Translations under genes and position numbers: made by a program
Assembly: GCA_016125275.1 (NCBI GenBank)
Contig: WGMB01000003.1
Span: 682,001-746,000, forward strand
Length of the DNA stretch: 64,000 nt
Direction: 5' to 3'
Source: Acidobacteriota bacterium
Lineage (GTDB): Bacteria > Acidobacteriota > Terriglobia > Bryobacterales > UBA6623
In this document: positions 4,851 to 17,811 of the stretch, one piece after another
How the letters are laid out: every line of letters begins with the position of its first letter
How positions within the stretch are numbered: position 1 is the stretch's first letter
The notes under the pieces: model-generated
Database searches by the model: none
What the model was told of the DNA's origin: nothing
The model's input: the letters and a program-made list of their open reading frames with translations, nothing else

Positions 4851-6839
4851 TCAGGAGGCGCTCACGCCCCCCGCCAGCAGCCGCCGGGCCTCGTCGCGCT
4901 CGTTCGGGGCCCCCAGCAGCGCCGCCAAGTCGCCGGGCAGCAAGGCGACCTCCGGCCCCGGATTCGGCAGCGCCACTCCGTCCCGCACCAGCGCCACAAT
5001 CGACGCGCCCGTCTCCCGCCGCAAGTCCAGCTCCCCGATCGTGCGGCCCACGCCCGGCGTCCCCACGCAGACCTCCGCCCAGCCGATCTCCAGCGCCGGA
5101 TGCGCCCGGCCGATTGTATCGAGCACGGTGGCGCAAGCCGGCGGCAACGCCTCCCCGCTCATGGGTGCGTACATCTCCTGCCGCACCGCTTCGCTGAAGG
5201 CGTAGATCCGCTCGGCGGGCGCGTTGTAGCGCGTCAAAACCTGCCGCACCATCGCCAGCCCGGCCTCGAACTCCGGTTGCACCGCCGACCACACGCCGAT
5301 CTCCCTTAGCTCCTGCATGTGCTCGGCATACAGCGCCCGCGCCACCACCTCGATTCCCGGCTGGGCCTCCCGCGCCTTCACCACCACCATCTTCATCGTC
5401 TCGGCATCCGGAATGGTCAAGAACAGCAGCCGAGCGCGGCCGACGCCGGCCGCCTCCAGCGTTTGCGGACGCGTCGCATCGCCCCAGATCGCCGGCAACC
5501 CGTTGCGCAGGCACTCGGCGATGTTCTCGTGGTCGAAGTCCACCACCAGGTAGGGCACGCCGATCCGCCCCATCACCTGCACCGCCGCCCGCCCTGTGCG
5601 CCCGTAGCCGGCAACGATCACATGATCAGCTAATCCCTGTTCGGGCAAGTGGAAGGTCTGCAGCGGCTCGTCCTGCGGGACCAGCCGCCGCCAACGCGCA
5701 TACAGCGGCCCTGACAGCCCGGCCAGCGCCGGCGACAGCACCATCGTCGCCAGCGTCGCGGTCAATGCCAGCGAGTAGACCTCCTGCGAAATCGACTGCG
5801 TCGAAACGCCCATCCGCGCCAGCACGAACGCGAACTCGCCGATCTGCGCCAACCCCAGCCCCACGATGAACGGCGCGCGGTTGCCGTACCCGAACCAGCG
5901 GGTTAGCAAGCCGAAGATGACCGCCTTGCCCACAATCACCAGCGCGACCGTCAGCGCCACCTCGCCGAAATTCTCGACCAGGAACATCGGGTCGAACAGC
6001 ATGCCCGCCGACGCGAAGAACAACAGCCCAAAGATGTCCCGCAGCGGCACGATGTCCGCCAGCGCCTGGTGGCTCAGCTCCGACTCCGACAGCACCATCC
6101 CCGCCACGAACGCCCCAAACGCAAACGACAGCCCGAACAGGTAGGTGCCGTACCCGACGCCGACCCCCAGCGCCAGCACCGCCACCAGAAACAGCTCATG
6201 GTCGCGCCAATGCACGATCTTCTTCAGAGCCCACGGAATCAACCGCGTGCCCACGAAGATCATCGCCGCCAAAAAGCCTACGGCCTGCAACGCCGCCAGC
6301 CCCAGCGCGGGCAGAGCCTTCTCCAGGTCGTTCAGCTTGGGCAGCACGATCAGCAGCGGCGCCACCGCCAAGTCCTGCACGATCAGCAGCCCGATCATCA
6401 CTCGGCTCGCCAGCGTGTTCGCCGTGCCCTGCGCCAGCAGAATCTTCAGCGTCACCATCGTGCTCGACAGCGCGATCATCGCCCCGAACCACACCGACTC
6501 GATCCCGCCCCAGCCCAACACCCCGCTGCCGATCGCGTAGCCCAGCAGGATGGAGAGCACGATCTGAATCGGCCCGCCGATCAGCGCGATCTTGCGCACC
6601 GGGGCCAGATCCTTGAACGACACCTCCATCCCCAGTGCGAACAGCAGCAAGGCGACGCCGATCTCCGCCAACAGCTCGATCTCGTGGATCTCCACCACCG
6701 TCGGCCCCGCCGTATTCGGCCCCACCAGCACGCCGGCCACGATGTAGCCCACCAGCAACGGCTGTCCCAGCCGCTGCGCGATCAGCCCGCCGATCAGCGC
6801 GGCGCACACGATCAAGACGATGTCGGCGGCGATTCCCAT
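4851..6839 (-). CDS. CPA2 family monovalent cation:proton antiporter (KefB/YbaL-like) with RCK domain
   Basis: 662 residues. About 380 N-terminal residues form a multi-helix Na+/H+ exchanger domain ([78 protein letters not shown]). A cytoplasmic TrkA-N/RCK domain follows at about 395-520 with the nucleotide-binding [14 protein letters not shown] and the acidic VVDFDHEN. A TrkA-C-like segment lies at about 575-655 ([25 protein letters not shown]). It should exchange K+ or Na+ for protons at the inner membrane, gated by nucleotide. It diverges from the sodium:solute symporter, and both promoters share the same AT-rich patch at 6849-6856. Confidence 0.92.
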
Positions 6840-6849
6840 CTCTCCACGA

Positions 6850-6855
6850 TATAAT
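6850..6855 (+). promoter_or_regulatory. Consensus -10 (TATAAT) in the divergent antiporter/symporter region
   Basis: TATAAT at 6850-6855 is a perfect consensus -10 for the plus-strand symporter, whose GTG at 6865 lies 9 nt further on. The same patch read on the other strand (TTATAT) sits just before the antiporter start at 6839, so the two divergent promoters appear to overlap. No convincing -35 was found. Confidence 0.4.
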
Positions 6856-6864
6856 CCGCTGCTC

Positions 6865-8334
6865 GTGGCCGTCGCTGATCAAATCGTCCTGCTGGGCTAT
6901 CTCGCGCTGATCGTTGGATTGGGTATCGCCTTCCGGGGCCAGAAGAATCTGAAGGAATTCTTCCTCGGCGGCAACCGCATTCCGTGGCAGGCCGCGGCCA
7001 TGTCCGGCATCGCCACCATGCTCAGCGCCGTCGGCTACGTCGGCGCGCCCGGGCAAGCCTACGGCGGCGACTGGACCTACTTGCAGCTCCGCGTGGCCTA
7101 CCCCGGCGCGCTGCTCATCGCCTGGTTCTTCTTCCTGCCGTTCTTCTTCCGGCTGCAGGTCTACTCGGCCTACGAGTACCTGGAGCTGCGCTTCGACCGC
7201 AAGACGCGCCTGCTGGCGGCCACGCTGTTCGTGTTCCTCAAGCTCTTCTACGCCGGCGTCGGCATCTACGCCCCGGCGCTGATCGTGGTGGAGATGACCG
7301 GTCTTCCCTTCTGGGCCGTCGTCACCGCCATCGGCCTGCTCACCACCGTCTACACCACCCTCGGCGGCATCCGGGCGGTCATCTGGACCGACGCCGCCCA
7401 GTTCTTCGTGCTCACCGGAGGCCTGTTCGCCGCGCTCTGGTTCGTGCTCGGCAAGGTCGACGGCGGTTTCCTCGGCGCGGTCCACGGAGCCTATGACGCC
7501 GACAAGCTCAAGTTCTGGAACTTCTCCGCCAGCCTCGACACCGAGTTCACCTTCTGGGGCGCCCTGTTCGGCGGAACCTTCCTGCTGCTGAGCCAGTACG
7601 CCGCCGACCAGTCCGAGGTGCAACGCTTCCTCACCACGCCGGACCTGCGCGGCAGCCGGCTGGCGCTGGGCTGGTCGCTGGGAATCAACGCCCTCTACGG
7701 CATGATCCTGTTCTTCATCGGGACGGCTCTGTGGGTCTACCACCAGCAGTCGCCGCCCGCCGGCGGCCTACCCGCGCCGGACCAAGCCTTCCCGCGCTTC
7801 ATCCTCGACGAGTTCCCGGCCGGCTGGCGCGGCCTGCTGATCGCGGGCGTCTTCGCCGCAGCCATGTCCACCATCAGCTCCGTGCTCAACTCGCTGGCGA
7901 CGGTCTTCCTGCGGGACTTCTACCAGCCGTTGAGCGGCCGCGAGGGCTCGGTCAAGCTGGCCCGCCAGATGACGCTGGTGTTCGGCCTCGCCGCCACCGG
8001 CATCTCGCTCTATACGGACTCGTTCGGAGACATCCTGGTGGCCGCCGGCAAGATCCGCAACTTCTTCGGCGGCAGCCTGGTCGGCGCCTTCCTGCTGGGC
8101 ATCTTCTTCCGCCGCGCCAACGGCTTCGGGGCGTTTTGGGGCATCGTGGCGGGCTTCGCGGCGGTGGCGGCGCTGGGCTACACCACGGGCATCTCGTGGC
8201 TCTGGTACAGCGTCATCTCCACGGTCGTGTCCGTCGGAGTCGGCCTGTGGCTGAGCAATTCCGCGCCCGAGCCGCCCCCCGAAAAGCTCCACGGCCTCAC
8301 CTGGACCGACCGCAAGGCCGTCCGCCCCTCGTAG
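6865..8334 (+). CDS. Sodium:solute symporter (SSS family)
   Basis: 489 residues from the GTG at 6865. An upstream in-frame ATG at 6820 would start inside the antiporter gene and upstream of the TATAAT, so GTG is preferred. The protein has about 13 hydrophobic helices and SSS signatures: [21 protein letters not shown], the [29 protein letters not shown] loop, [36 protein letters not shown] and [23 protein letters not shown]. It should import a sugar, sugar acid or similar solute with Na+. Which solute is unknown. Its TAG stop (8332-8334) is the GTAG end of a palindromic repeat. Confidence 0.9.
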
Positions 8335-8376
8335 CGCACGCCTCCCGGCGTGCCGCGGAGGCCGTCCCGGCCTCCG
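8331..8376 (+). repeat. REP-like palindromic repeat, copy 1 (left half)
   Basis: Left half of the repeat family: GTAGCGCACGCCTCC, an 18-nt hairpin of GCACGCC/GGCGTGC type, then GGAGGCC-GTCCC-GGCCTCC. The first four bases contain the symporter stop codon. Confidence 0.85.
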
Positions 8377-8387
8377 ATCCCCCGATG

Positions 8388-8397
8388 TGGTATACCA
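8388..8397 (+). promoter_or_regulatory. Palindrome TGGTATACCA overlapping a -10-like element
   Basis: A perfect 10-bp palindrome 6 nt upstream of the ATG at 8404. Its TATACC (8391-8396) is placed as the -10 of a leaderless transcript. A similar TGGTGTACCA occurs at 16701-16710 upstream of the Tat-exported SelA-like gene. Confidence 0.35.
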
Positions 8398-8403
8398 ACG
8401 CCG

Positions 8404-9366
8404 ATGCCTACCACGATCAACAGGCGGCGACTCCTGCAACTCGCCGCTGCGCTGTCCGCGACGCCGGCGCTGAGCGCGGCCGAAAAGCAATGGGAGGGGA
8501 TCTTCGTGATCATGCAGACTCCCTTCCTCGACGATCTGTCCATCGACGAGGACTGCCTGCGGAAGGAGACCGACTTTCTCTGCCGGGGCGGCGTTCACGG
8601 CGTGGTGTGGCCCGCGGGCGCGAGCGAAACCACCTCCATCTCGTTCAACGAGCGCATGCGCTATGCGCCGGCCGTGGTCAAGGAAGCCAAGGGCCGCACC
8701 ACCGTCCTGATCGGAGTTCACGGAGCGAACAAGTTCGAGGCGATGGAGTACGCCCGCTTCGCCGAGAAGATCGGCGCCGACGGCTTGCACGCCCTCGGAC
8801 CCACCGACGGCTACGGCGATAGCCAGTATCTCGAGGACTACTTCACCGCGATCGCGTCGGCGTCGAAGCTACCCCTGTGCATCCAGGTTTCGAACGGCGG
8901 GATGACGACCGATTTCCTGCTGCGCATGGCGGACAAGATTCCGTCGTTGCGAATTCTCAAACTCGAGGCCGGCAACGTTCCCCATGAGGTCACGCGAGTC
9001 GTCAAGGAGCGCAAGCGGACGCTGTTCCCCTCCACCGGCGGCGGCGCCATGAACCTCTACAGCGAGATGGAACGCGGCTCGGGCGGCACGATGGCGGGCG
9101 CCGGCTTCGCGGACATCCAGGCCCAAATCTGGGACTGGTATCACGAGGGCAAGAAGGAAGAGTCGCACGAGCTCTTCCAGAAATTCCTGCTGTCGGCCGT
9201 GCTCGAGCGGCGCACCACGTTCGTCCTGATGAAAGAGATTCTGCGGCGGCGGGGCGTCTTCAAGAACGTCATCATGCGCCGGACGAGCCGCTTCACCATG
9301 GACGCAGCGGACCTCCGAGAGCTCGATCAGATCATGGAGTTGCTCCAGCCCTACTTCAGGGTCTGA
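8404..9366 (+). CDS. Tat-exported dihydrodipicolinate synthase (DapA/NanA)-family protein
   Basis: 320 residues starting at ATG 8404. An upstream in-frame ATG at 8350 lies inside the repeat and is rejected. The N-terminus has a Tat-type leader (NRRRLLQLAAALSATPALSAAE). The rest follows the class I aldolase TIM-barrel of the DapA family: GIFVIMQTPFLDDLSID, CRGGVHGVVWPAGASE, VLIGVHGANKFEAMEYARFAEKIGADGLHAL, and LRILKLEAG, whose Lys would be the Schiff-base residue. The usual Tyr of YNxP is absent (CIQVSNGG). The family cleaves or condenses 2-keto acids; export to the periplasm is unusual. A homologue with the same leader type is at 54991-55950. Confidence 0.85.
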   Translation: MPTTINRRRLLQLAAALSATPALSAAEKQWEGIFVIMQTPFLDDLSIDEDCLRKETDFLCRGGVHGVVWPAGASETTSISFNERMRYAPAVVKEAKGRTTVLIGVHGANKFEAMEYARFAEKIGADGLHALGPTDGYGDSQYLEDYFTAIASASKLPLCIQVSNGGMTTDFLLRMADKIPSLRILKLEAGNVPHEVTRVVKERKRTLFPSTGGGAMNLYSEMERGSGGTMAGAGFADIQAQIWDWYHEGKKEESHELFQKFLLSAVLERRTTFVLMKEILRRRGVFKNVIMRRTSRFTMDAADLRELDQIMELLQPYFRV

Positions 9367-9425
9367 CCCAACAAACGACCGTCGCCGGGTCCTGACCGGC
9401 ACGCCCGCCGCCTTTAGCAAGCTCC

Positions 9426-9482
9426 GTAGCGCACGCCTCCAGGCGTGCAGCGGAGGCCGTCCCGGCCTCCGGCGTGCACTAC
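9426..9482 (+). repeat. REP-like palindromic repeat, copy 2 (internally deleted)
   Basis: Left half (9426-9471) identical in layout to the full copies, joined directly to a degraded right end (GGCGTGCACTAC). The middle GTCGTCGG/CCGACGAC hairpin is missing. It lies between the convergent DapA-like and esterase genes. Confidence 0.8.
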
Positions 9483-9496
9483 ACGCCGGCCCCTCT

Positions 9497-10378
9497 CTAG
9501 CGCCCGCTGCGCCCCGTCAACGGGTCCAAGAACCGAAACAGCTCCACCGTCGCCGGGTCCTCCGGCTTCCCCAAGTCGTCGTTCAGCCGCACGTGGTTCG
9601 TGTCCCCTTTGCCGAAGACTTTGACCGGCACGTCCGCCGCCTGCAGCACGCTCTCGAGCCGTTCGGCCTGCGCCCGGGTGTCCGCGTTGCCGGCAAAGTA
9701 CAGCAGCAGAAACGGCGGAACGCCCTTCCCTTTCGCCACATGCGTAACCGCCGAAAACTCCAGGTGCTTGTTCGGATCGTTGCCGAACTTCTGACGGTGG
9801 CCGAACGTCGGCAACGGCCGGCCGTACAGCGCCGTACGGAGCTCGGCCGTGATGATGATCTTCGGGATGTCGTAGGTATCCCCGTCCACCGGCACGCAGC
9901 CCTTCAGCGCCGCGAACGGCACGCCGACGCCGCGCGCCAGGCGATCGTCGGTGCACAGCAGCGCCGCCAGTTGCGCCCCCGCCGAGTGGCCGCCGATGAA
10001 GATGCGGTTCGGGTCGCCGCCATAGCGGGCGATGTTCTTGTAGACCCAGCCCAGCGACGCCGTCACGTCCGCCGTCAGCTCGTCCATCGTGGCCTGCGGC
10101 AGCAGCCGATAGTTGGATGAAACGAACACGAAGCCGCGCTCGGTGAGGACTTTGGGCTTGAGCGCCACATCGCTCTTGTCCCCAGCCTGCCAGCCGCCGC
10201 CGTGCAGCCAGAACATCACCGGCAGCCCCTGCGCGGCTTTCTGCGGCGCGTACACGTCGAGGACGTTGCGCTCATGCCCGTTCTCCACGTAGGGGATGTT
10301 CGCCGTGAGCTTCTGGCCCGCGGCAAATCCGGCCGACAGAGCCAACGAGACAACAAGCAGGACGGGCCGCAGCATCAT
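9497..10378 (-). CDS. Secreted alpha/beta hydrolase (BD-FAE/carboxylesterase-like)
   Basis: 293 residues with a signal peptide ([16 protein letters not shown]). The hydrolase shows the oxyanion-hole motif HGGGW (about 59-63) and the nucleophile elbow GHSAG (Ser132), preceded by [12 protein letters not shown], as in hormone-sensitive-lipase and BD-FAE type esterases. HVRLNDDLG near the C-terminus supplies the probable catalytic His. Likely substrates are small esters such as acetylated sugars; this is family inference. The gene is preceded by TATCAT exactly 6 nt before the ATG, so it may be leaderless. It converges with the DapA-like gene across repeat copy 2. Confidence 0.88.
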
Positions 10379-10384
10379 GGCGGA

Positions 10385-10390
10385 ATGATA
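10385..10390 (-). promoter_or_regulatory. Putative -10 (TATCAT) for leaderless esterase mRNA
   Basis: On the minus strand TATCAT is separated by exactly 6 nt (TCCGCC) from the ATG at 10378. No Shine-Dalgarno sequence fits in the gap. Confidence 0.4.
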
Positions 10391-10439
10391 CTACGGGGCG
10401 CGCGCCTCCGGGAGCGCCGCGGAGACCGTCCCCGCCTCC
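10391..10439 (-). repeat. REP-like palindromic repeat, copy 3 (diverged)
   Basis: Starts CTACGGGGCGCGCGCCTCC and continues with a recognisable but mutated GCGGAGACCGTCCCCGCCTCC. It keeps the order of the left half of the family but has lost most perfect pairing. It sits in the divergent region between the esterase and the uncharacterised Tat protein. Confidence 0.5.
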
Positions 10440-10467
10440 TTCTCCGGCGATGCGGGACAATCGACGG

Positions 10468-11757
10468 ATGGCTCCCACCAAGCTCTTCCGCCGGCGTGAC
10501 CTGCTGGGCGCTCTGGGGACGGCCGCTCTGGCCGCCCAATCCGGCCTCTTCGCCGCGGAGAAGCGGCCCCGCATCGCCTGCGTGGTCACCTACTGGGGCG
10601 GCACGAGCTCCCACGCGGACTGGATCCTCAGCAAGCTGCTCGACGGCTATTGGTTCCAAGGGGCTCACGTGCCTCCCCGCCTCGACATCGTCTCGGTCCA
10701 CATCGACAAGCTCGACGACAGCGTCCTCGGCCGCGCCGTCTGCGAACGCAAGAAGATTCCCCTGCTGCCCACGGTCCGCGAAGCCCTCACACTGGGGGGC
10801 GGCGAGCTGGCCGTGGACGGCGTGGCGCTGGTGGGAGAGCACGGCGACTACCACAGCAACCTGCTGGGCCAGAAATACTATCCCCGCTGGTGGCTCTACC
10901 AGCAGATCGTGGAGGTCTTCGAGCGGAGCCGGCGCTCCGTCCCGGTGTTCAATGACAAGCACCTGTCCACGAGCTGGGACGAAGCCAAGTGGATGTTCGA
11001 CAAGTCCCGTGAGCTGGACTTTCCGCTCTTCGGCGGCTCGTCTATCCCCTACTACTACCGTGAGCCGGCGATCGATCTCGAACCGGAAACGCCCATCCGC
11101 GCGTCGGTCCTGGCCGGGGGCTCCAGCGGCGAAGGGAGCCTCTTCCACTCCATCGACGTGGCGCAGAGCTTCGTAGAGCGCCGCAAGGGCGGCGAGACCG
11201 GCGTCGCCGCCGTGCAATGCATCCGCGGGCGGGAGGTGTGGAGTTGGACCGAGCGGAACCCCTGGGCCGGCGGGCTGCTCGACGCCGTTGGCAAGCGCTT
11301 CGACTTTCAGCCGGGGCATTTTCAGGAGACGGTCCGCGAGCCCAGCGTCACCCTGATCGACTATCGCGACGGGACGAAGACCGCGATCTACGACGCGCCG
11401 GACGTGGGCTGGACCTATGCCTGCGACATCGCGGGCCAAGCCGAGCCGACGCTCGTCTCGATGCTCGGCTGGCCGGGCCGCCAGTATGGCCACTACCGCG
11501 CCGGCAACGCCTTCGAGCACTGGATCACGCAGATGATGCTGACGCGCCAGGAGCCCTGCCCGGCGGAGCGGCTGCTGCTGTCGACGGGGCTGACAGCGTT
11601 CAACATGCAGTCGAACTGGCAGAACGGCCGCTACTCCGCCGTGGGCCGCCGCGTGGAGACGCCGTACCTGGACATGACCTACCGCCGGGAGCGAAGCGCC
11701 ATGTTCAACACCGGCCCGCGCCCGCCGGTCCTGCCGGATACACGCCATCTCGGGTAG
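10468..11757 (+). CDS. Uncharacterised Tat-exported protein
   Basis: 429 residues from ATG 10468. An ATG at 10450 in frame is possible, but GACAAT lies 6 nt before 10468. A Tat leader is clear (KLFRRRDLLGALGTAALAAQSGLFAAE). The mature protein begins RPRIACVVTYWGGTSSHADWILSKLLDGYW and has conserved-looking blocks VHIDKLDDSVLGRAVCERKKIPLLPTV, VGEHGDYHSNLLGQKYYPRWWLYQQIVEVF and PVFNDKHLSTSWDEAKWMFD. Similar Tat proteins occur in acidobacteria and planctomycetes, but I do not recognise an assigned function. The C-terminus has no membrane helix. The TAG stop (11755-11757) is contributed by the GTAG of repeat copy 4. Confidence 0.7.
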   Translation: MAPTKLFRRRDLLGALGTAALAAQSGLFAAEKRPRIACVVTYWGGTSSHADWILSKLLDGYWFQGAHVPPRLDIVSVHIDKLDDSVLGRAVCERKKIPLLPTVREALTLGGGELAVDGVALVGEHGDYHSNLLGQKYYPRWWLYQQIVEVFERSRRSVPVFNDKHLSTSWDEAKWMFDKSRELDFPLFGGSSIPYYYREPAIDLEPETPIRASVLAGGSSGEGSLFHSIDVAQSFVERRKGGETGVAAVQCIRGREVWSWTERNPWAGGLLDAVGKRFDFQPGHFQETVREPSVTLIDYRDGTKTAIYDAPDVGWTYACDIAGQAEPTLVSMLGWPGRQYGHYRAGNAFEHWITQMMLTRQEPCPAERLLLSTGLTAFNMQSNWQNGRYSAVGRRVETPYLDMTYRRERSAMFNTGPRPPVLPDTRHLG

Positions 11758-11851
11758 CGCACGCCTCCAGGCGTGCAGCGGAGGCCGTCCCGGCCTCCGT
11801 CCGGGAGGTCGTCGGGGACCGACGACCCGGCACGCCGGAGGCGTGCGCTAC
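11754..11851 (+). repeat. REP-like palindromic repeat, copy 4 (full length)
   Basis: 98-bp complete copy. The ends are inverted: GTAGCGCACGCCTCC at the left and GGAGGCGTGCGCTAC at the right. Inside are three compact hairpins: GGAGGCC/GGCCTCC around GTCCC, GTCGTCGG/CCGACGAC around GGA, and GCACGCC/GGCGTGC at each end. The outer arms can pair with each other or fold as separate hairpins. It lies immediately upstream of the transposase frame. Confidence 0.92.
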
Positions 11852-11928
11852 GAGCCCAGGCAAATCCCGAGCGGCCGACCGGAGGGCAGTGGTCGGAGGC
11901 GGGCGCCCCGTGCTACTCTTTCGAACGC

Positions 11929-12474
11929 TTGCAGTATCGGCGTCTTCCGCACATCTATCCGGAAGACCGGGCGTTGTTCTTCACCTGGACCCTTCACGGG
12001 AGCCTGCCTACCTCCCGCTTGCCGCCCCCGGGCTCCTGGAAATCCGGCAAAGCCTTCCTTTGGACCGACCGTTATCTCGATTCCGCGAGCAAGGGACCCC
12101 TGTGGCTCGGGAAGCCCGGGCCGGCCGAGATCGTCGAAGCGGCGATCCTTTTCGGCGACCGCGAGCTGAAGAGCTACGAGGTGGTCGCTTACGTAGTGAT
12201 GGCCAACCACGTCCACCTGCTGGTCTGGCCGCGGGCGCACCCCAGCCAGTTTCTGCGGCAGCTCAAGGGATTCACCGCGCGGGAATGCAACAAACTGTTG
12301 GGCTTGACCGGCCAACCTTTCTGGCAGCGGGAGAGCTATGACCGCTGGGTACGCGACGAACGGGAGCTGCAGCGCATCACCCACTACATCGAAGCCAACC
12401 CCGTCCGAGCAGGTCTGGCAAAGACCCCGGAAGAGTTCCGCTGGTCCAGCGCCTGGCGCCGAGCAAACCCGTAG
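11929..12474 (+). CDS. REP-associated tyrosine transposase (RAYT), IS200/Y1 family
   Basis: About 181 residues if TTG 11929 is the start (MQYRRLPHIYPEDRALFFTWTLHG). The frame is open back to an ATG at 11773, but those residues translate the repeat itself. Y1/HUH features are present: VMANHVHLLVWP with the metal-binding His-x-His, the conserved FLRQLKGFTARECNKLLG helix with FWQRESYDRWVRDERELQRITHYIEANPVRAGL (candidate catalytic Tyr in ESYDR or HYI), and the C-terminal WSSAW. Proteins of this type act at REP palindromes that start with GTAG. Here the gene is flanked on both sides by such palindromes, and its own stop is the GTAG of copy 5. It is not part of a classic IS with terminal ends. Confidence 0.88.
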   Translation: MQYRRLPHIYPEDRALFFTWTLHGSLPTSRLPPPGSWKSGKAFLWTDRYLDSASKGPLWLGKPGPAEIVEAAILFGDRELKSYEVVAYVVMANHVHLLVWPRAHPSQFLRQLKGFTARECNKLLGLTGQPFWQRESYDRWVRDERELQRITHYIEANPVRAGLAKTPEEFRWSSAWRRANP

Positions 12475-12568
12475 CGCACGCCTCCCGGCGTGCAGCGGAG
12501 GCCGTCCCGGCCTCCGTCCGGACGGTCGTCGGGGACCGACGACCCGGCACGCCGGAGGCGTGCGCCAC
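12471..12568 (+). repeat. REP-like palindromic repeat, copy 5 (full length)
   Basis: 98-bp complete copy starting with GTAGCGCACGCCTCC; the right end is GTGCGCCAC instead of GTGCGCTAC. It begins inside the stop codon of the RAYT gene. Confidence 0.92.
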
Positions 12569-12749
12569 GAACCCCAGGCAGATCCGGTGCGGTCGTCCCG
12601 GCCTCCGTCCAGGAGGTCGTCGGGGACCGACGACCCAGCACGCCGGAGGCGTGCGCTACGAGCCCAGGCAGACCCCGTGCGGCCGTCCCGGCCTCCGTCC
12701 GGACGGTCGTCGGGGACCGACGACCCGGCACGCCGGAGGCGTGCGCTAC
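12569..12749 (+). repeat. REP-like repeat, copies 6 and 7 (tandem right-half units)
   Basis: Two further units, ending at 12659 and 12749, follow copy 5 with a period of 91 and 90 bp. Each has a linker (CCCAGGCAGA-), a shortened GTCCCGGCCTCCGTCC segment, the GTCGTCGG/CCGACGAC hairpin and the right end CACGCCGGAGGCGTGCGCTAC. The CTA of the last unit is the stop codon of the enolase-superfamily gene on the minus strand. The linker also follows copy 4, so it belongs to the amplified unit. Confidence 0.88.
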
Positions 12750-13897
12750 ACCCCATACCGGGCTACGGCGTCGCGGTCCAACTCCACGCCCAGTCCCGGC
12801 CGGTCCGGCACGATCGCGTAGCTCTCCACGATCGGAATCGCCTCCACCAGCAGATCGTCCACGCGCCGGTAGCTCAGCGCGTCGCTGGCGAGGGTGCAGT
12901 TCTCCGCCGCCGCGCAGGAGTGGATGAACGCCGCGTCCTTGATCCCCAGCTCGTGGCCCGAGCCGTGCCACACCGGCATCCCCGCGCCGCCGGCCACGTA
13001 GGCGTTGCGCACGAAGCCGTGCATGCCCGGCGCCGGGCCGGTGTTGATGTAGGTGCAGGCGCCCGCCTTGGCCCCCTCCACGATCAAGCGCGCGTTCCCG
13101 GCCGTCAGCGTGATCGGCGTCCGCAACAGCTCCTCCAGCCGCGCGAACTGCGACAGGTCGTCCTTCTTCACCGGGTCTTCGATCGTCAGCATGTTGTCGA
13201 GCACGTCCAGCCCCTTGCCGATCGGCAGGAACTCCTCGGCGGTGGCGTAGTGGCTGTTGAAGTCGACCGTCACCTTCAAGTTCGGCGCGACCTCGCCCAC
13301 CGCCGCCACCGCTTCCACGATCGGATCGCCCGGACGGCCCTTCATCTTCAGGTTCGTGAAGCCGCCGTCGAGCGCGCGTTGCGCCACCCGCCGGGCGTCG
13401 ACCGGGTTCTTGCGGCCGCACCAGTACGTCACATAGACCTTGTCCTGCGCCTTGCCGCCCAGGAGCTGATAGACCGGCCAGCCGACGGCCTTGCCGAGCG
13501 CGTCGAACACGGCGATCTCAAAGGCGCTGTAGGTCCGTCGGTTGGGCAGCTCCAGGCGGGCCAGGTTCAAGTCGAACAGGTTCTTGCCCTCCAGGAATTG
13601 GGCGTTGGGCAGCACGTCGCTCTCTTCCACCGCGCGCGGAGTCTCGCCGACGCCGACGATGCCCGAATCGGTGTGCAGCTCCAGAATGAACTTGGGGATC
13701 GACGGGAACTCGGTCAGCGCGTCCGGGCCGAGCTCCGGGCTGCTGATGATGTCGTCCTGCATCGGCACAACCACCTTGTGCAGGTCGACCCGGGTGATCT
13801 TGACCTTTTCCGCGTGGCCGGCGGTGCAGGCGGGGAGCGCCGCCAGGCCGCAGGCCCCCAGAGTGGAGAAGAGATCGCGGCGAGAGAGGGCGCGCAT
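12746..13897 (-). CDS. Tat-exported enolase-superfamily protein (mandelate racemase/MLE type)
   Basis: 383 residues. The Tat leader LSRRDLFSTLGACGLAALPACTAGHA is followed by a capping domain (ITRVDLHKVVVPMQDD.., GVGETPRAVEE) and a TIM barrel. Catalytic features are the K-x-K of FTNLKMKGRPGDP, metal ligands in VTVDFNSHY (Asp) and LTIEDPVKKDD (Glu), and a C-terminal HGSGHELGI. The usual third metal ligand motif GE is GN here (LTAGNARL). The family abstracts a proton alpha to a carboxylate, for example in acid-sugar dehydration. The stop codon is formed by the end of repeat copy 7. Family is certain; substrate is unknown. Confidence 0.85.
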   Translation of the reverse strand: MRALSRRDLFSTLGACGLAALPACTAGHAEKVKITRVDLHKVVVPMQDDIISSPELGPDALTEFPSIPKFILELHTDSGIVGVGETPRAVEESDVLPNAQFLEGKNLFDLNLARLELPNRRTYSAFEIAVFDALGKAVGWPVYQLLGGKAQDKVYVTYWCGRKNPVDARRVAQRALDGGFTNLKMKGRPGDPIVEAVAAVGEVAPNLKVTVDFNSHYATAEEFLPIGKGLDVLDNMLTIEDPVKKDDLSQFARLEELLRTPITLTAGNARLIVEGAKAGACTYINTGPAPGMHGFVRNAYVAGGAGMPVWHGSGHELGIKDAAFIHSCAAAENCTLASDALSYRRVDDLLVEAIPIVESYAIVPDRPGLGVELDRDAVARYGV

Positions 13898-13963
13898 GGT
13901 GCAGACAGTTAAGCACCTTACACCCGCGCTGACAACGGCCCGCGCGGCATTTCCGCACGGCGG

Positions 13964-14968
13964 CTACGACCGGCCGTTGCGGCGCGCAAGCTCTTCAAAC
14001 ACGGCCTTGCGCTCCCAACATGCCTCGGGCGATGCAGCGCCCTCGTCGAGCACCCGCACGACGCCGAAGGAGGCCACGTCCAGATCGCGGCGGCCCTCCC
14101 CGGCGGGCCGGTTCCAGGAGGCGAAGGTGAACCAGAAGGCCGCCTCCAGCCCGCATTGCTCGTAGACCTCGGCCACCTCCCGCAGGTACCGTACCTGCTC
14201 GTCCTCGTCGCGAACCCAGTCGCCGTCGAGCCGCCGGTCCGCCCCCGCCCCCTCGACGATCATCCAGCCGGAGCCGCCGCGGGCCGCCGCGCCGCGGTAC
14301 GTGCAGCAGCCAAACTCGGTGGCCGCCACCGGCTTGCCGTGGCCGGCCAGCGCTTGGAGCGACGCGGCGAAAGTCTCCCGGTTGGCTTCGTCGCGATAGG
14401 CGTCGACGCCCACGATGTCGAACGGAGTCCAGTCCACCTGCTCCCAGGCGCCCGAGGCGTAGGTGACCGGCCCGGCGAACCGCGCTCGCACGGCGTCGGC
14501 GGCTTCGGCCAGGAAGGCGTTGAAGCGGGCCAGGATCTGGGGATACTCCGCAAACAGCTCGGGAGTCGGCGCGCTCAGCAGCCGCAGCCGGGCGTAGACG
14601 TCGTCGCCGGGCAGAAAGCCGCTCCCGAAGACGCTCGCCTCGCACCCCGCCACAAAGACCACGTTCGTCCCTGCCTGCCGGCGCAGTTCCTCGGCCGCCG
14701 CCGCGGACTCGGCCAAGAAGGCCGTCATCGCGGGGTCTTCCAGCTCGCAGGGGAAGGGTGAGAACCACACGTCCAAGCCGGCGTCGGCGGCGCACCGGCC
14801 GGCCCAGCGGAGCCGCTCCAAGTCGCCGCCGGTGATGCGCACGGCCGGGCACCCCAGCTCACGCGCAATCGCCTGCATGTCGAACCGGACCTGTTCGCGC
14901 CGAAACACCGCGCGGGAGGGACGGGCTCCGGGAAAGAAGCCCGTGTCGTAGGTAATTCCAATCTTCAT
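13964..14968 (-). CDS. TIM-barrel glycoside-hydrolase-like protein
   Basis: 334 residues, no signal peptide, start MKIGITYDTGFFPG. Sequence blocks such as RFDMQAIARELGCPAVRITGGDLERLRWAGRCAADAGLDVWFSPFPCELED, FDIVGVDAYRDEANRETF, GKPVAATEFGCCTYRGAA and LEAAFWFTFASWNRP read as successive beta strands of a glycosidase-type barrel. The Glu in ATEFGCC is a candidate nucleophile. Close relatives in actinobacteria are sometimes named 'abortive infection protein', but nothing in the sequence points to phage defence. It lies upstream of the Tat enolase gene on the same strand, 66 bp away. Confidence 0.65.
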   Translation of the reverse strand: MKIGITYDTGFFPGARPSRAVFRREQVRFDMQAIARELGCPAVRITGGDLERLRWAGRCAADAGLDVWFSPFPCELEDPAMTAFLAESAAAAEELRRQAGTNVVFVAGCEASVFGSGFLPGDDVYARLRLLSAPTPELFAEYPQILARFNAFLAEAADAVRARFAGPVTYASGAWEQVDWTPFDIVGVDAYRDEANRETFAASLQALAGHGKPVAATEFGCCTYRGAAARGGSGWMIVEGAGADRRLDGDWVRDEDEQVRYLREVAEVYEQCGLEAAFWFTFASWNRPAGEGRRDLDVASFGVVRVLDEGAASPEACWERKAVFEELARRNGRS

Positions 14969-15006
14969 CGGGAGTCGCCTCGCCGCTTCTTACCCTAGCA
15001 GCCCCC

Positions 15007-15105
15007 GTGGCGCACGCCTCCAGGCGTGCAGCGGAGGCCGTCCCGGTCTCCGTCCGGAGGGGTCGTCGGGGACCGGCGACCCGGCACGCCAGAGGCGTGC
15101 GCTAC
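15007..15105 (+). repeat. REP-like palindromic repeat, copy 8 (full length)
   Basis: 99-bp full copy, slightly diverged: the left end is GTGGCGCACGCCTCC, and the internal hairpins carry changes (GGTCTCC, CCGGCGAC). The right end GCGTGCGCTAC contains the stop codon of the SelA-like gene. Confidence 0.9.
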
Positions 15106-16685
15106 GCCCGCCGCGCCGACCACTTCGCCTGGCCGTACTCCCAGCCCAGCTCCACGATCCCGCCCAACTCGTTCTGCGTCGCCGCCCCCTCGAACTTGTA
15201 GTCGAAGTCCGTCGCCTCGTAGCGTCCGCGGATCTGGAACGCCACACGGTCGCCGTCCACGTGCCCGCGCAGCGTCCCGTGCGGAACCAGCGGGCTGCTG
15301 TAGGAGCCGGAGATCTCATTCCCGTCGGCGTCCAGGTATAGACGCATCTGCGTGCGGCTCGCCACGAACTCCAACTCGGCGACCCAGTGGCCGCTCACAT
15401 CCACGCCGGCCGGCCGCCGCTTCGGTTCGGGCTTCGGGCCCGGCGCATTCTTCAGCACCTCATACAGCCGCTCGGCCACGATCTTGTATTCGCCCGGATA
15501 CATCGCCGCCGGCCGCAGCACGAAGCGGTGGCCCTCCCCCTCGGCGTGCGTCATGATGCGCGGCGAACCGGCCAGCATCTCGCGGCCCAGCTCGGCGTTC
15601 GAGTAGCCGATCTTGGCGGGGTCCCACTCCACGAACAGCACCGGGTAATAGGCCGGGCGGTCCGGCGGCGTGATCTCGGCCTTCACGCCCGGAACCTGCT
15701 CGATGCGAGCCTTGATGTGCTCGAACCAGCTCGTCCATTCGCGGTCCTCGGCGTCCCGGTCGCGCTTCTGCACCAGGTACTCGACGGCCGTCACCAGCCC
15801 CACCACCTCTTCCTTGCTGACCTTGATGGTGCGGCCGAACGTGATGTGCGGCGAGCTGCCGGCGTAGGCCGCCGCGATCAGGTCCCGCCGGCCCATCAGG
15901 ATGCCGGATGTCTGCGGGCCCCGCAGGATCTTGCCTCCGCTGTAGGCCACCAGATCGACGCCGGCTTCCAGAAACGGGTTGGGACGCAGTGGCAGGTCGG
16001 CGGCGGCGTCGATCAGCACCGGCACGCCGTGCGCGTGGCAGGCCTGCACGTACTGCCGCAGCGAGAACGGGTTGCCGCTGTCCGCAACGTTCACCTGGGC
16101 GTGCGCCAGGGCGGTGCGCGGCGAGAAGGCGGCGGCGAGATCCTCGGCCGTTTCGACCTCGATCATCCGCACGCCGACGTTGCGCACGGCCTGGTCGTAG
16201 TAGCTGCGCGACCACTTCGGCACGATGCATTCGTTCTTCAAGCCGGCGGTGTTGGGCAACTGCTTCATCTTCTCGGGGTCGCCGCCGGCCACGCAGGCGA
16301 TGGTTCCGCAGGTCACTGAACCCGCCGCGCCCGAGCTCACCATGGCGCTCTCGGCCCCCAGCAGCTCGGCGATGCGCGCGCCGGCCTTGGCCATCAGCTC
16401 GTCGAGATTCACGTGGTAGTGGCCGGCTTGCTCGATCGCCTCGATCACCTCCGGCAGTTGCCGCGACCCGCCGTTGATGGTGTAGGTGGAGGTGCAGTTG
16501 ATGAACGGCTCCACCCCGAGCCGGGAGTAGACCTCCGGGCCGCCGCCTCGCACCGGCATGCCGGTGGTGGCGGCCGCGGCGGCGGGCGTCAGCCCCAGGA
16601 GCCCGGTCGCGGTCGCCGCGCCTCCGGCCTGAAGCATGCTGCGGCGAGTGAGGCGCTGGGCGGCGGGCGGTTTCTGCGATGCCAT
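15102..16685 (-). CDS. Tat-exported SelA-like PLP-dependent protein with C-terminal beta domain
   Basis: 527 residues from ATG 16685, preceded by AAGGAG at a good distance; longer upstream frames are rejected. The Tat leader is LTRRSMLQAGGAATATGLLGLTPAAAAA. The fold-type I domain resembles SelA/D-glucosaminate-6-phosphate ammonia-lyase: RLGVEPFINCTSTYTINGG, AKAGARIAELLGAESAMVSSGAAGSVTCGTIAC, VPVLIDAAADLPLRPN and VDLVAYSGGKILRGPQTSG (PLP Lys in SGGK). The last 110 residues (GVDVSGHWVAELEFVASRTQMRLYLDADGN..) form a separate beta-rich module common in secreted acidobacterial proteins. No selenocysteine machinery is nearby, so an ammonia-lyase or racemase role is more likely. An exported PLP enzyme is unusual. 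Confidence 0.82.
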   Translation of the reverse strand: MASQKPPAAQRLTRRSMLQAGGAATATGLLGLTPAAAAATTGMPVRGGGPEVYSRLGVEPFINCTSTYTINGGSRQLPEVIEAIEQAGHYHVNLDELMAKAGARIAELLGAESAMVSSGAAGSVTCGTIACVAGGDPEKMKQLPNTAGLKNECIVPKWSRSYYDQAVRNVGVRMIEVETAEDLAAAFSPRTALAHAQVNVADSGNPFSLRQYVQACHAHGVPVLIDAAADLPLRPNPFLEAGVDLVAYSGGKILRGPQTSGILMGRRDLIAAAYAGSSPHITFGRTIKVSKEEVVGLVTAVEYLVQKRDRDAEDREWTSWFEHIKARIEQVPGVKAEITPPDRPAYYPVLFVEWDPAKIGYSNAELGREMLAGSPRIMTHAEGEGHRFVLRPAAMYPGEYKIVAERLYEVLKNAPGPKPEPKRRPAGVDVSGHWVAELEFVASRTQMRLYLDADGNEISGSYSSPLVPHGTLRGHVDGDRVAFQIRGRYEATDFDYKFEGAATQNELGGIVELGWEYGQAKWSARRA

Positions 16686-16830
16686 CGGGAGACTCCTTGC
16701 TGGTGTACCAAGTCTACAGCGCGCCGTCGGGCCGCATGGTTCAGATTGCTCGCCGGCCCCGCTTCGGCTACTCTGACGGCGGCTCCGCGGCCCCCTGCGT
16801 CCAACCGGGCCGCGCGCCGAGGCTGTACAC

Positions 16831-17811
16831 ATGACGACCGATCCTTCCGCTCCCGGCCGCCGCGGTCTTCTCCGCCCCGGACCCTCGCTGGCGGTCCTGC
16901 TGCTGCTCTCCGGCTGGGCTTCGGCGCAAACCGCGCCGCACCCGCTGCCGCGAATGAAGCCCAGCGAGGCCGCCACGGCTTACAAAAAGGAGATCGGCCG
17001 CGAGCCCTCCACTTGGCGCTGGAACGTCCCGGTGGAGCTGCCGCACCTCACGCACGGCGTCGTCCACAGCCCGTCGATGGACCGCGACATCGGCTACAAC
17101 ATCTACCTGCCGCCGAGCTACGCCGACAATCCCTCGCTGCGCTACCCAGTGGTCTACTACTGCCACGGCGCCACCGGCAGCGAGAGCTCTGACACGCCGG
17201 TCGTCGAATATGTGATCGCCGAGCTCGCCGCCGGACGCATCGGCGACGTGATCTACGTGTTCGTCAACGCCGGGCACTTCAGCGGCTACCGCGACAACCC
17301 CGCCAGCGGCGTCCTGGCGGAAACCTACTTGATGCGGGAGTTGATCCCGGAGATCGACCGCCGCTACCGGACGCTGGCCTCCCGCCAAGGCCGCGCGCTG
17401 ATGGGCTTTTCCATGGGTGGAGGCGGCGCCACGCGGCTGGCGCTGGCCCACCCGGACGCGTTCTGCGCCGTGGCCTCCTTCGCCGGAGCCTTGGACGCGA
17501 ACCCCGACCTACCGGCCGGGGCGGACGAGCGCGCGCCGGTGGACCCCGCCAACAGCGTGTATCACTGGGCCAAGGTCCACGCCGACCAGATCAAACACAA
17601 CCTCGCGCTCTATTTCTTCGTGGGCGACCAGGACCGGCTCTACGGCCGAAACGCGGCCTTCGTGGACTTCCTCCACCAGCAAGGCATCGGCTTCGACTAT
17701 CGTGTGATGGCCGGCCTGGGCCACGACCTTTGGGGGTCCATGGCGCTGTGCGGCGCCGAAGCCGTTCGCTTCCTGGCCGCCCACTACGAGCCGGCCCGCG
17801 CCGCCGAATAG
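16831..17811 (+). CDS. Secreted esterase (Fes/esterase D-like alpha/beta hydrolase)
   Basis: 326 residues with an N-terminal signal (SLAVLLLLSGWASAQ). The hydrolase domain shows VVYYCHGATGSESSD (oxyanion region), the elbow GFSMGG (Ser194), FFVGDQDRLYGRN (Asp) and MAGLGHDLWG (His), a complete catalytic triad in esterase order. Family members cleave ferulate, acetyl or enterobactin-type esters outside the cytoplasm. It diverges from the SelA-like gene and converges with the outer-membrane barrel gene, 5 nt away. Confidence 0.85.
   Translation: MTTDPSAPGRRGLLRPGPSLAVLLLLSGWASAQTAPHPLPRMKPSEAATAYKKEIGREPSTWRWNVPVELPHLTHGVVHSPSMDRDIGYNIYLPPSYADNPSLRYPVVYYCHGATGSESSDTPVVEYVIAELAAGRIGDVIYVFVNAGHFSGYRDNPASGVLAETYLMRELIPEIDRRYRTLASRQGRALMGFSMGGGGATRLALAHPDAFCAVASFAGALDANPDLPAGADERAPVDPANSVYHWAKVHADQIKHNLALYFFVGDQDRLYGRNAAFVDFLHQQGIGFDYRVMAGLGHDLWGSMALCGAEAVRFLAAHYEPARAAE

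Follow-up and report, generated by a model that had tools for sequence, protein, structure and literature searches.

A probable REPtron with loop-matched, two-hairpin palindromes in a Bryobacterales genome

Few non-coding repeats of bacteria are as common as repetitive extragenic palindromes (REPs), and the way in which REP-associated tyrosine transposases (RAYTs) recognize and spread them is unsettled. Here we describe an intact RAYT gene and the repeats around it in a 64-kb stretch of the genome of an Acidobacteriota bacterium (contig WGMB01000003.1, positions 682,001 to 746,000; hereafter the window, in whose numbering positions are given). We consider it highly probable that the locus is a REPtron, a RAYT together with the palindromes on which it acts, and that RAYTs of this clade have a REP of 45-46 nt with the layout GT[AG]G-N-hairpin 1-hairpin 2, the second hairpin repeating the recognition hairpin directly but without the GTAG. 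The anatomy of the unit, its clustering, its genome-restricted distribution, its covarying stems, its matched loops and its single phylogenetic origin were all computed directly. The host is a soil bacterium of the order Bryobacterales (Acidobacteriota), and its RAYT is a domesticated transposase gene. GTAG REP systems are thereby extended to an order for which the earlier literature that we consulted gives no such listing.

Eight repeat copies surround an intact RAYT gene

A single repeat family is present in eight copies between positions 8331 and 15105, around an intact HUH/Y1 transposase gene: three are full elements (98, 98 and 99 bp), two are singlets, two are truncated and stand in tandem, and one is degenerate (Table 1). 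With up to three mismatches allowed, the window has 17 matches to the 15-bp end of the repeat where 6.2 would be expected, a count reached by 0 of 100 shuffles, and all exact copies in the window lie within 8331-12749. Our recount agrees with the original prediction, which had been made from the letters alone and had described eight copies within 6.8 kb of an HUH/Y1 transposase, with full copies on both of its flanks; the flanking copies are those at 11754-11851 and 12471-12568. That prediction had also given the full copies a length of 98 bp, GTAG...CTAC ends and three or four hairpins. The length is right for two of the three; GTAG stands at both ends only in 11754-11851, the element at 12471 having GTGG at its right end and that at 15007 GTGG at its left; and each full copy has four hairpins, its halves also occurring alone. 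Near-identical copies and tandem arrays are at most compatible with a system that is active or was so recently.

The reading frame of the RAYT is intact, and its start was placed at the TTG at 11929, giving 181 amino acids, because relatives begin M-x-x-R-R-L-P-H. The protein matches the Pfam family Y1_Tnp (PF01797) at 35.4 bits (cut-off 23) and the NCBIfam model NF047646 (REP_Tyr_transpos) at 75 bits, below a curated cut-off of 80 that is a naming threshold and no defining trait of RAYTs; all 13 aligned relatives match the same model at E <= 1e-3, and H94, H96 and Y153 are invariant among them. For an AlphaFold (AF2) model with a pLDDT of 92.6, the best match in the PDB is the E. coli TnpAREP-REP complex (4er8, chain A; Foldseek E 1.9e-8, Z 14.7, rmsd 3.1 over 140 residues), the structures of IS608 and ISDra2 scoring lower (Z 12 or less). 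In a sequence alignment to 4er8, W132, Q133, D138 and R142 fall on W94, Q95, E/D100 and R104 of E. coli TnpAREP, which contact the GTAG and whose roles in its recognition have been described (PMC6006769); this W-Q..D..R motif is conserved in the relatives alongside the HUH and the tyrosine. The Y1_Tnp domain, the HUH and tyrosine motifs, the fold match to 4ER8 and the GT[AG]G palindromes, both clustered at the gene and dispersed, all bear out the earlier assignment to a REP-RAYT system.

The repeat unit has two hairpins with matched loops

In the 98-bp element two unlike units of 45-46 nt, A and inverted B, stand head to head, each made up of GT[AG]G, hairpin 1 and hairpin 2. The two share GTAGC and hairpin 1 (GCACGCC-TCC[A]-GGCGTGC) and differ in hairpin 2, which reads CGGAGGCCG-TCC-CGGCCTCCG in A and GGTCGTCGG-TCC-CCGACGACC in B; hairpin 1 of one subtype, GCGCGCC-TCCA-GGCGAGC, regularly contains a G/A mismatch. 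The original prediction had likened the full copies to paired inverted REPs, and the head-to-head pairing stands; the partners are not ordinary REPs, the element being an A/inverted-B dimer of two-hairpin units that mostly occur singly. In the whole genome there are only four such full elements, three of them in the window and one at C14:906050-906147, and most copies in the genome consist of a single A or a single B, so that doublets are not the main form. The single-stranded unit folds into exactly two hairpins, and the full element into a long stem that bears both second hairpins (z -6.6 to -10.5). Across 15 units of the host's own genome, 95.4% of pair cells are paired and 7 of the 16 pairs, 5 of which belong to hairpin 2, have changed at both positions; when the partner is slid by 1-3 columns, pairing drops to 32-47%. 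These counts are limited to own-genome units of equal layout, because MAFFT on all units puts hairpin 2 out of register. The covariation supports both hairpins.

What hairpin 2 might be is indicated by its loop. At all 23 loci compared, this loop resembles the hairpin 1 loop more closely when both are read in the same strand sense than when one is reverse-complemented, and the mean edit distance between the two loops is 1.09, as against 2.33 with loops shuffled among loci; the tests treat related loci as independent, which makes their P-values optimistic, and their result is unchanged when flanking pairs are added. The matched pairs themselves differ from locus to locus (GCCT/GCCT, TTCA/TTCA, TCCC/TCCC, GGC/GGC). 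Because the loops match in the same strand sense, hairpin 2 has the look of a GTAG-less duplicate of the recognition hairpin in direct orientation, and not of something left by an inverted partner. When the two flanks of one RAYT are compared, its stem varies more freely than the hairpin 1 stem (a mean of 1.6 versus 0.7 differences), and its geometry is kept, the linker being mostly 0-2 and the stem mostly 7-9. A constant loop and geometry combined with a drifting stem would be the trace expected of a protein that reads loop and shape.

The two-hairpin form is confined to one RAYT clade

We examined the flanks of about 90 related RAYTs, with the labels on the tree set by script. These flanks carry other sequences on the same plan: GT[AG]G followed by two hairpins occurs 56 times in 42 kb near RAYTs and 4 times in 166 kb far from them. 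All 18 RAYTs scored as two-hairpin fall in a single clade of 27 (support 100/96), whose members all come from Bryobacterales or other Acidobacteriota, and two-hairpin REPs were found at none of the 49 scored RAYTs outside it. The sister clade, from the same order, has ordinary one-hairpin REPs with hairpins of 8-9 bp, and deeper relatives from Planctomycetota, Chloroflexota, Verrucomicrobiota and Bacteroidota have ordinary hairpins too. Labels assigned earlier by eye, before the tree was seen, also gave one origin, to which the scripted rule adds one exception (L137, see below). The two-hairpin REP seems to have arisen once, together with its RAYT clade. Sister clades of one order, acting on one-hairpin and two-hairpin substrates, form a natural comparison, and between units A and B the stems of hairpin 2 have been swapped with loop and geometry fixed; what the RAYT reads, whether loop, stem, foot or stoichiometry, is therefore directly testable.

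The distribution of the family itself was assessed with a covariance model of the unit (R2) built for this family, since an earlier model based on units of six relatives (R1) misses it. The original prediction had proposed a genome-wide count and a test for clustering at the RAYT, and had named equal abundance in relatives that lack a RAYT as a point that would speak against it. In the 7.55-Mb genome, 34 units score at least 38 bits and 10 of these lie inside the 6.8 kb around the RAYT (binomial ~4e-23). The exact 15-bp end occurs 15 times in this genome and 0-1 times in each of 60 relatives, the window's family being found in none of the 60; seven single 15-mer matches in relatives were rejected as repeats, being coding sequence without a palindrome. 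Genomes of the host's own family contain no close RAYT, and the nearest ones (49-58% identity) come from other families of the order. The unit model does find two-hairpin units in five relatives (G025, 81; G018, 14; G060, 11; G026, 6; G036, 2), all of which carry RAYTs of this group. A RAYT of G025 (L105) is identical in protein to that of Bryobacterales bacterium palsa_129 (L124), which G025 evidently is; the host belongs to the same order, as the original prediction of an acidobacterium would have it.

G025 is also of interest in its own right: at least 81 dispersed two-hairpin REPs (e.g. L198, L206) and about 12 diverged RAYT matches occur in this one Bryobacterales genome, making it a better model for activity than the window.

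Several observations weigh against the reading of a two-hairpin REPtron or limit its reach. By the script, clade member L137 is one-hairpin (by eye, the next 20 bases form a second hairpin) and 8 further members are unlabelled, at three of which (L107, L118, L120) the covariance model found two-hairpin units. The clade differs from its sister at just two columns of the protein alignment, and therefore no obvious second DNA-binding site is visible in the RAYTs of the clade. A total of 34 copies is low for a REP family, the classical high-copy families usually having >100. Two-hairpin-like units also occur in G007 (8 matches; L202) and G019 (3 matches; L200), neither of which has a close clade RAYT, so that the link is not absolute; these could be relics left after RAYT loss, or the assemblies could be incomplete. 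No empty site for a repeat was found, the nearest genomes being of other genera. The optimistic P-values of the loop tests belong here as well.

A possible mechanism and its alternatives

The TnpAREP proteins studied so far grip the GTAG foot and the hairpin of a single-stranded REP and cut close to it, at C|T or C|A (PMC8266576). By analogy, the RAYT of the window would bind single-stranded units, such as those on the lagging-strand template, by their GTAG foot and first hairpin, nick nearby through Tyr153 and join the ends, with singlets and A/inverted-B pairs spreading in trans; action in trans on dispersed units is the most likely mode. CTC is enriched just before the foot (9 of 27 versus 37 of 436), which is compatible with the known C|T cleavage site and no proof of it. 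Hairpin 2 might be docked by the same RAYT via its matching loop, most simply by a second protomer, and the complex be placed or stabilised in this way, which is the least certain step. Insertions next to a gene end, with a GTAG as stop codon, would be tolerated, and the supply of stop codons by the repeats would follow from this. Such supply is frequent: the GTAG provides the stop codon of a coding frame at 11 of 28 units, compared with 21 of 420 control GTAG sites (p = 4e-7), and in the window the RAYT and four other genes receive their stop from a repeat.

More tentatively, in this clade of Acidobacteriota RAYTs a single remodelling may have turned a one-hairpin substrate into one with two loop-matched hairpins of the same orientation, because the enzyme came to work as two protomers per REP unit, one on GTAG and hairpin 1 and the other on hairpin 2; we regard this as possible, with the balance somewhat against it. 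If true, a two-protomer RAYT would be a step between the monomeric TnpAREP and the dimeric IS200/IS605 transposases, with both hairpin loops coevolving with the protein. An alternative account, which we think unlikely, limits the REP to GTAG and hairpin 1 and takes hairpin 2 for a structured spacer that head-to-head dimers left behind and that plays no role in recognition. Stem-loop spacers have been described for REP dimers, as have degenerate GTAG-1 units joined to unrelated stem-loops in P. putida and P. fluorescens (both PMC3733652), and the greater variability of the hairpin 2 stem (mean 1.6 versus 0.7 between flanks) is what such a spacer might show. Hairpin 2 is nevertheless kept in singlets, its pairing is maintained by compensatory change and its geometry is preserved; moreover, a leftover of an inverted partner would show a reverse-complement loop, whereas the loops match in the same sense at 23 of 23 loci.

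The two remaining alternatives concern the locus as a whole, and we give either of them only a slim chance. The host might keep the elements as bidirectional 3'-end signals (terminators or mRNA stabilisers) at gene ends, the RAYT being incidental. The supply of stop codons (11/28 units versus 21/420 controls), the element at C14:906050-906147 that gives stops to two convergent genes, and the stable folds of the full elements (z -6.6 to -10.5) would all suit such a role. GTAG REPs are, however, already known to supply stop codons (PMC3733652), no relative has the family, its copies cluster at the RAYT, and its architecture tracks the RAYT tree; none of the repeats has the T-run of an intrinsic terminator, and a reading as such terminators was dropped on that ground. 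Alternatively, the RAYT and its flanking repeats could be an IS200-like insertion sequence that moves as a unit, of which the dispersed repeats are remnants. Inverted copies do flank the gene, and in G026 a 745-bp block with the RAYT and both REPs stands in two contexts (L103:1343-2087 and L104, on C223 and C296; 92% identity, dN/dS ~0.12), so that a whole REPtron was apparently duplicated or moved there in one piece, which according to the literature is not usual. IS200/IS605 elements are characterized by multiple near-identical whole copies, yet the host genome holds one intact copy, the only other close trace being a decayed fragment that belongs to another repeat family (L114); many repeats are dispersed without a gene, and in the other genomes compared the coexisting RAYT copies are strongly diverged.

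Relation to known systems

REPtrons, heterodimers, clusters with flanking DNA and the supply of stop codons are already known. With the GTAG REPtrons of E. coli, Stenotrophomonas and Marinomonas (PMC2817692, PMC8266576), the locus shares an HUH-Y1 protein of the TnpAREP fold, inverted GT[AG]G palindromes flanking the gene, repeats both dispersed and clustered, and the use of the TAG of GTAG as a stop; it differs from them in its two adjacent, loop-matched hairpins and its low copy number (34). As in classical REPs, a 5' GT[AG]G stands beside a palindrome and the units are dispersed between genes, but a classical REP has one hairpin in 20-40 nt, where we find two in 45-46 nt. The four full elements have the build of a REPIN, BIME or head-to-head heterodimer, two inverted REPs (here A and inverted B) with GTAG outside; such heterodimers, and tandem clusters that include flanking DNA, are known for REPs (PMC3116915, PMC3733652), although here only four full pairs are present, singlets predominate and each pair has four hairpins instead of two.

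In its NHVH, WQ and YIxxNP-type motifs, a length of about 180-194 amino acids, GT[AG]G REPs and a scatter over many phyla, the group resembles TnpAY1 subclass 2.4, or group 4 of Bertels (PMC6006769), from which the present system differs in having neither a double-foot REP nor a REP inside the gene. In a comparison by motifs, NHVH and WQ of the window's RAYT fit those of subclass 2.4 (NH[IFV]H, WQ, YIxNNP) and YIEANP fits loosely; YIExNP is present in most members of the two-hairpin clade. Side-by-side palindromes flanking a Y1 transposase gene are also seen in the double palindromic repeats of Pseudomonas RAYTs and the double palindromic terminal inverted repeats (TIRs) of TIRYTs (PMC3733652, Figs 8B and 9), but those are degenerate GTAG-1 units with an unrelated stem-loop, or TIRs without GTAG, whereas here the loops match and the form is clade-wide. 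The TIRYTs of Acidobacteria have TIRs unrelated to GTAG repeats (PMC3733652), and the present flanks begin GT[AG]G. Another acidobacterial Y1 protein with dispersed palindromes, the class 3 TnpAY1 of Solibacter usitatus (PMC6006769), has a CnGA foot and a Y motif ending in Q, in place of the GTAG foot and YIEANP found here. None of the four REP types of the 2018 classification (PMC6006769) has two hairpins, as far as its text shows, and we found no description of two-hairpin REPs in Acidobacteriota in the openly readable literature. Three points are new within that literature: a two-hairpin REP whose loops match, the origin of this form just once, in one RAYT clade, and the occurrence of GTAG REPs in Bryobacterales.

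Features of the window and further observations

Table 1. RAYT gene and repeat copies, in window positions
Feature	Position	Strand	Remarks
REP unit type A, singlet	8331-8376	+	Its TAG is the stop codon of an SSF symporter gene (6820-8334)
REP unit type A, singlet	9426-9471	+	73.7 bits (unit model)
Degenerate type A unit	10395-10440	+	Foot GGGG instead of GTAG; 33 bits (unit model)
Full REPIN-like element upstream of RAYT	11754-11851	+	A 11754-11799 (+), inverted B 11807-11851 (-); TAG ends gene 10450-11757
RAYT, 181 aa, TTG start	11929-12474	+	HUH is NHVH (H94, H96); Tyr153 in YIEANP; predicted GTAG-contact region W132 Q133 D138 R139 R142
Full element downstream of RAYT	12471-12568	+	A 12471-12516 (+), inverted B 12524-12568 (-, GTGG foot); TAG is the RAYT stop codon
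Tandem left-truncated copy	12569-12659	-	B unit 12615-12659 (-), remnant of A hairpin 2 and flanking DNA; period ~90 bp
Tandem left-truncated copy	12660-12749	-	B unit 12705-12749 (-); TAG ends enolase-like gene 12746-13897 (-)
Full element	15007-15105	+	A 15007-15052 (+, GTGG foot), inverted B 15061-15105 (-); TAG of B ends aminotransferase-like gene 15102-16976 (-)

Elsewhere in the host genome, the full A/B element between two convergent genes (L036; G000:C14:906050-906147) gives a TAG stop to both of them, and four B-type units lie in tandem at a spacing of 216-228 bp that includes flanking DNA (L212; G000:C13:170761-171478). A second, dead REPtron of the same kind is also present (L114/L210; G000:C14:1234669-1234935): a decayed RAYT fragment of 62% identity with an internal stop, flanked by two-hairpin repeats of other sequence (GTGGAGCAGGCCTCCCGGCCTGC CAGCTCGGCCTCCCGGCCGAGCT). 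Two further Y1_Tnp genes stand side by side (L031, L032; G000:C2:52136-54227), with long frames of 289 and 330 amino acids that are distant from the RAYT of the window.

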